Below are positions 14,941-22,891 of a stretch of 32,704 nucleotides of DNA, piece by piece. Below the pieces are notes generated by a model, which did no database searches, had not been told where the DNA came from, and saw only the letters and a program-made list of their open reading frames with translations. Position 1 is the stretch's first letter, and the number at the start of each line of letters is the position of its first letter. This stretch comes from Crocinitomix sp. (lineage in GTDB: Bacteria; Bacteroidota; Bacteroidia; Flavobacteriales_D; Crocinitomicaceae). The stretch lies in contig DQTE01000253.1 in NCBI GenBank assembly GCA_015662905.1, positions 1 to 32,704 on the forward strand, written 5' to 3'. The translations under genes were made by a program, and so were the position numbers.

Positions 14941-15101
14941 GAAGTTGTTTAAAGTCAAATAATAAGTTAAAAAATGATTCTTTTATCGTCTACCTTCGTT
15001 ATTTTTTCTAACCATAGCTTTGGCTATGCTTTTCAAAAATGCCTTGTCAATCAACAAAATAATTCATTTTCACATTTTATCATTCAACCCTAAACAACTT
15101 C
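14941..15101. mobile_element. Non-coding MITE-like or structured repeat, copy 1 (161 bp)
   Basis: This unit recurs at 22739-22891 with 11 substitutions over 153 aligned positions (about 93% identity) and one 8-bp tandem duplication (CATTTTCA) present only here. Its ends are a perfect 11-bp inverted repeat (GAAGTTGTTTA and TAAACAACTTC). Beyond these, self-complementarity continues: a central hairpin (CATAGC, TTTG, GCTATG) and weaker pairing between the flanks. No ORF of note is present. No clear target-site duplication flanks it. It sits 37 bp after fmt and just before an IS982-like remnant. I infer a MITE or a mobile structured-RNA element; the parent transposase is not identified. Confidence 0.75.
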
Positions 15102-22738: not shown

Positions 22739-22891
22739 AAAGTTGTTTAAAGTCAAATAATAAGTTAAAAAATGATTCTTTTATCGTCTGCCTTCGTTAT
22801 TTTTTCTAACTATAACTTTAGTTATGCTTTTCAAAAACGCCTTATCAATCAACAAAATAACTCATTTTATCATTCAACCTTAAACATCTTC
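22739..22891. mobile_element. Non-coding MITE-like or structured repeat, copy 2 (153 bp)
   Basis: This is the second copy of the unit at 14941-15101, without the 8-bp duplication. The left terminus begins AAAGTTGTTTA and the right ends TTAAACATCTTC, so its inverted ends carry two mismatches relative to copy 1. The central hairpin reads TATAAC, TTTA, GTTATG; relative to copy 1 one G-C pair became A-T through changes in both arms, and another pair became T-G. It occupies the ricT/ABC gap (22518-22898) and stops 7 bp before the TTG start of the ABC gene. The rest of this gap (22518-22738) is AT-rich with no gene. Confidence 0.75.

Follow-up and report, generated by a model that had tools for sequence, protein, structure and literature searches.

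A MITE-type foldback repeat of Crocinitomix and its relatives with variable ends and a conserved folded core

The window analysed here, a 32,704-nt stretch that is contig 65 of a 2.97-Mb draft genome of Crocinitomix sp. (G000; 335 contigs), carries two copies of a non-coding repeat whose central hairpin differs by paired changes. The initial annotation took this covariation between two copies as a sign of selection on a folded molecule. The question is whether the repeat is a decaying relic or a mobile element in which a fold is maintained.

Copies in the window and in the Crocinitomix genome

Global alignment of the two copies showed 11 substitutions (10 transitions) and one 8-base gap; the second copy and its 11 differences were thus as counted before, and the double change from G-C to A-T in the ATAGC/GCTAT hairpin was real. 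The features of the repeat in the window are as follows.

14941..15101, minus (the strand of the conserved fold): full element, copy 1 (161 bp), from sequence matches
15087..15101, minus: terminal inverted repeat, 5′ end on the core strand, GAAGTTGTTTAGGGT, from the sequence
14941..14955, plus: terminal inverted repeat, 3′ end on the core strand, GAAGTTGTTTAAAGT as read on the plus strand, from the sequence
14973..15062, minus: conserved 90-nt core of copy 1, covariance model R2, 99.4 bits
15041..15045, minus: near-invariant AAGGC, 5′ side of the internal loop, conserved letters read directly in the sequence
15001..15040, minus: inner stem ATTTTT/AAAAAT (15035-15040 with 15001-15006) around the apical hairpin, strongly covarying between genomes
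15013..15028, minus: apical hairpin CATAGC-CAAA-GCTATG, the hairpin of the initial annotation, from the fold and R2
14997..15000, minus: near-invariant AACG, 3′ side of the internal loop, conserved letters read directly in the sequence
22739..22891, minus: full element, copy 2 (153 bp, with an 8-base deletion), from sequence matches
22771..22860, minus: core of copy 2, R2, 85.7 bits
12484..12508, minus: solo end of the same element, a decayed remnant, AACTTATTTGACTTTAAACAACTTC as read on the plus strand, from a sequence match

A search of the draft genome with the unit gave 43 matches (best besides itself, E 6.5e-71), 12 of which are full copies of about 149–161 bp, and many others retain both ends around an internal deletion. 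The inverted ends in this genome are GAAGTTGTTTAA. A 3-bp target duplication was found at 10 of the 14 testable copies compared to 1.5 expected; copy 1 in the window has lost it and is flanked by CTT and ATT. The longest ATG-initiated open reading frame (ORF) in the element encodes 39 amino acids, and the element holds no coding gene. The repeat unit is a non-autonomous DNA transposon of the miniature inverted-repeat transposable element (MITE) type.

The deleted forms that keep both ends measure 27–110 bp and their junctions are all different, showing that none of them has multiplied and that they represent decay in place. This lack of amplified deletion derivatives could reflect an activity that ended before the deletions arose. 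Among the 12 full copies, single changes in the stem kept pairing in 27 cases and broke it in 37. Transitions kept pairing 27 times and broke it 12 times (57% kept is expected by chance), all 25 transversions broke it, and only two both-sided changes were seen. The resident copies thus look close to neutral in their decay, so that two copies alone prove little and the evidence has to be sought between lineages.

Relatives, ends and partner insertion sequences

BLAST detected full or nearly full elements of 73–76% identity in three other genera, and a sequence-only profile added more distant relatives in which the ends differ and the centre is the same. One match of the sequence-only model (L071) proved to be coding sequence and was discarded as false. 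The 90-nt structured model R2 matched 29 of 399 genomes within the order and eight of 396 within the phylum (Bacteroidota), one of them with a core of 67% G+C. The search for further copies and relatives proposed in the initial annotation yielded both. Among complete genomes, G522 holds 49 copies, Saprospira grandis Lewin 45 and G617 30. Aquimarina sp. RZ0 (G816) holds about 350, judged from 346 + 354 ends, and the listed pairs of ends lie 162 bp apart; no longer partner element was found among the ends listed. The 162-bp copies in this 7-Mb genome (for example, L236–L278) are near-identical, pointing to a very recent burst.

A sequence pattern applied to one genome per species matched at least 119 stretches, including some in Bacillota, Campylobacterota, Beta- and Gammaproteobacteria (Pseudomonadota), Myxococcota, Desulfobacterota and Gordonia. 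Members of the family were found in at least six bacterial phyla. Among the matches listed, 99 of the 109 testable ones had inverted repeats beside them above the 99th percentile of random sites, and a reversed control pattern gave no match in eight genomes where the true pattern gave up to 47. Several isolates carry more than one copy: Endozoicomonas ascidiicola (47), Ottowia thiooxydans (seven), Variovorax (four), Lachnospiraceae A2 (three) and Gordonia hydrophobica (two). In the pattern-found set, the cores differ between phyla and their stems are compensated. The window copy had no match among phage and plasmid records, the sequence pattern had none among viral contigs, and an Endozoicomonas copy had none in Escherichia coli.

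Some variants of the layout were also observed. Plasmids of Cupriavidus and Mitsuaria (Burkholderiales) gave core-only matches of about 48 nt at 85–92% identity with different flanks. Campylobacterota (L242, L314, L266, L283 and L238) carry a version of about 260–280 bp in which two core hairpins stand head to head, joined by a CCCNNNGGG linker and enclosed by shared outer ends, for example TTAGACTTCTTTGCATAAC. Core variants also occur within repeats carrying AACCTGAGTTCGA (L184–L188 in G135, L105 and L111).

The ends vary between genomes while the length stays near 160 bp, full copies measuring about 150–163 bp. End types include GAAGTTGTTTAA, GAGCCTGTTTAAA, GAACTCATCTTGACTTTTT, TACGATTTGTG, TACCAATTTAG, TACGAATTACATT, AGGGTCTNTKA, CTAGTGCTGTAATTC, AAGTACTGTGACA and others. 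One genome (G099) has three unrelated end types around a nearly identical core, and comparison of L209 with L214 showed ends altered together on both arms. The 3-bp duplication was found at 24 of 25 Aquimarina copies compared to 12 expected and at nine of 11 copies in G216 and G135 compared to 3.9 expected; it was also seen in G581 and G522. The duplicated triplets are mostly TTA, TAA, ATT or AAT and occur with several end types, and a clear 3-bp duplication was absent for the end types CTAGTGCTG of G099 and CTAGTGT of Lachnospiraceae. The TA-flanked ends (TACCAAT and TACGAATT) had been considered IS630-like, and this assignment was dropped; the duplication in Aquimarina and G581 is 3 bp (TTA/TAA).

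Two decaying insertion sequences (IS) whose ends match those of local core elements were found. L221 (G621:C22:79572-80429) is an 858-bp IS5-type element with a DDE_Tnp_1 domain (PF01609) and L437 (G522:C1:3906769-3907681) is a 913-bp IS5-type element with DUF4096 (PF13340), the transposase frame being interrupted in both. The match extends over 13 bp in G621 and, allowing one mismatch at one of the ends, over about 19 bp in G522. Neither IS has the core, and similarity to the core elements stops at the terminal repeat. One transposase query revealed no IS with the element's ends in the genome of the window, and the G621 transposase, sought in 13 genomes, was found in G621 only, plus a fragment in G064.

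Fold and strand of the core

The hairpin noted in the initial annotation is real, but it is the minus strand that folds well, at −50.2 kcal/mol compared to −26.3 kcal/mol for the plus strand. The first alignment, made on the plus strand and hence on the wrong one, gave no predicted pair with RNAalifold. On the minus strand, the hairpin change has G-U intermediates in sister copies (own2 and own4).

Nearly all elements are about 160 bp long and have the layout AAGGC-stem-CRTAGC-hairpin-GYTAYG-stem-AACG. The conserved letters lie in the loops. AAGGC occupies the 5′ side and AACG, which is often extended to AACGAAG or AACGCAG, the 3′ side, and the tip has CRTAGC-GYTAYG; in the pattern-found set these letters are partly fixed by the pattern itself, but in the model-found set they are not. 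An alignment of 14 diverse cores (A2) showed both-sided changes in 16 of 29 pairs, with 52 compensated cells compared to at most 19 in slid controls. A larger alignment of 102 distinct rows (A3), which is fitted to the model with few gaps and includes 12 low-scoring opposite-strand matches, gave 687 both-sided cells compared to at most 293 in slid controls, and a covariation score of 0.597 compared to at most 0.203. The common fold is supported by this covariation across genera and phyla. The two-copy covariation proposed as a sign of selection is insignificant by itself, given the 27 kept and 37 broken changes in 12 copies; the evidence for selection lies between lineages.

The core strand had the lower RNA folding energy in 95 of 98 elements that are less than 75% identical to one another (mean −54 versus −41 kcal/mol; sign test, 1e-24), and with DNA parameters it also folded better in 92 of the 98. 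In the outer stem, G-U outnumbered A-C by 68 to 18, a count that refers to the set found by sequence pattern and not to the set found by the covariance model. Since a double-stranded DNA cruciform would show no such strand asymmetry, one strand, most likely as RNA, is the constrained form. It is the G-U asymmetry by itself that suggests an RNA step, DNA parameters favouring the same strand. At the second pair of the apical hairpin, the pattern-found loci have A-C (CATAGC/GCTACG) in 22 cases, G-C in 16 and A-U in nine but never G-U, and this A-C preference suggests a specific recognised geometry.

Overall, the original interpretation of the repeat as a MITE with a structured core or a mobile structured-RNA family is supported by inverted ends, 3-bp duplications, absence of a coding ORF, up to hundreds of copies and strong covariation, with 43 matches in place of two copies and compensation in excess of controls, although two copies were a weak basis for it and the opposite strand is the functional one.

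Explanations and known systems

Non-autonomous elements are usually regarded as remnants of insertion sequences, passive and tied to one lineage. In this family it is the interior that lasts, with a structure conserved across phyla, and the ends are what changes. Something in the interior must be under selection; a widely conserved partner probably recognises it. We give a probability of about 50% to the reading that the repeats form an old family of foldback non-autonomous transposons of about 160 bp, mobilised in trans by IS5-type elements, whose ends are swapped and whose fold is kept across phyla. IS5-type DDE transposases supplied in trans would recognise the short terminal repeats and make the 3-bp duplications, and these repeats would have been exchanged or have re-evolved many times to suit the available transposase. 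In the interior, one strand folds into a long hairpin with conserved internal loops, a fold retained through compensatory changes across phyla. The folded molecule may be RNA copied from the element, and the folded strand may help the element itself to spread, perhaps by contact with the transposition machinery or with a widely conserved RNA-binding protein: decay of resident copies is almost neutral, and it is the lineages still on the move that keep the fold. Most likely, the folded strand, probably RNA, is needed for efficient multiplication through a widely conserved partner. The fuller version, in which an ancient multi-phylum mobile structured RNA swaps ends to ride any IS5-type transposase and its folded RNA is required for multiplication, making it a selfish RNA gene carried inside a DNA transposon, is put forward tentatively.

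Other explanations of the fold were weighed. It might be required in the form of single-stranded DNA or of an extruded hairpin, in that a transposase or host protein would recognise the hairpin on a single DNA strand, as in IS200/IS605, REP and attC systems. The preference of DNA parameters for the core strand is consistent with this explanation, and the inverted core hairpins inside common ends in Campylobacterota are reminiscent of BIME pairs, but the IS5-type matching ends and the 3-bp duplications indicate a DDE transposase that works on ends in double-stranded form, and orientation showed no evident relation to the replication halves in the complete genomes G617 and G522, which leaves the explanation rather unlikely. 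That correction of imperfect palindromes by template switching would make any foldback element covary, with no selection on structure, would suit a near-palindromic element and the both-arm end change between L209 and L214. Such correction, however, would erase conserved unpaired loops and yield no one-strand G-U excess, whereas conserved loops and a G-U excess are both seen across phyla; we consider it improbable. Recent horizontal transfer combined with misbinned metagenome contigs could exaggerate the age and breadth of the family, and many pattern matches do come from metagenome bins. Given several copies in isolates and between-phylum core differences with compensated stems, this is the case in our view only with very low probability.

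A benefit to the host is also conceivable, the hairpin regulating or insulating neighbouring transcripts as a stabiliser, terminator or RNase III site. The copies are mainly intergenic (132, versus 16 overlapping ORFs), and known bacterial MITEs can affect mRNA stability (PMC3733652; PMC10969869). However, all four arrangements of neighbouring genes occur (tandem 44 and 38, divergent 28, convergent 22) without orientation preference, and resident copies lose the fold through broken pairs and many core-less deletions, making this explanation quite unlikely. The absence of orientation bias and the near-neutral decay of resident copies argue that the fold serves the life cycle of the element itself and not the host. 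Functions as attC sites, retron RNA, SRP RNA mimicry or self-cleaving ribozymes were also considered and were not supported. One core element, L253 of Lachnospiraceae bacterium A2, adjoins a cluster of seven tRNA genes.

No Rfam family matched above its curated score, either at the window element or at 18 loci whose elements come from several phyla, the searches otherwise giving noise, or unrelated tRNAs and a riboswitch. No description of a cross-phylum core was found in the bacterial MITE literature searched (ISfinder and subscription papers lay outside the search), and the family is apparently undescribed so far. It would supply annotation pipelines with a repeat or RNA family missing from Rfam, and the idea is directly testable, as the element is small, reaches about 350 copies in a named strain and makes clear structural predictions.

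Papers on bacterial MITEs describe narrow families with ends in common with a local IS, such as MITEAba12, which pairs with ISAba12 and has reported target duplications (PMC6382973), and MITECca01, which pairs with an IS982 element in Cardinium (PMC9769881). The present element resembles both in being short, non-coding, intergenic and multicopy and in having ends in common with an IS; however, each of those is restricted to a family or strain and has no reported cross-phylum interior, whereas here the interior is conserved across phyla and the ends vary. ERIC, NEMIS/Correia, RUP and Nezha are likewise small palindromic repeats whose transcripts can fold (PMC3733652), but they were described from particular groups and the present family is multi-phylum; the ERIC core sequence, sought as an exact match only, was found in none of 464 loci. 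REP/BIME sequences with RAYT transposases (PMC3733652) are similar in being structured, strand-specific, non-autonomous hairpins, and the Campylobacterota elements form inverted pairs as well. REPs, however, measure 20–40 bp and carry a GTAG or CGTC tag. The present unit has terminal repeats and 3-bp duplications, and its length of about 160 bp lies outside the REP/BIME range. The ends also match those of IS5-family elements (DUF4096/DDE_Tnp_1), over 13 bp in G621 and about 19 bp in G522; these partners carry a transposase without the core, whereas the present element has the core and no transposase.
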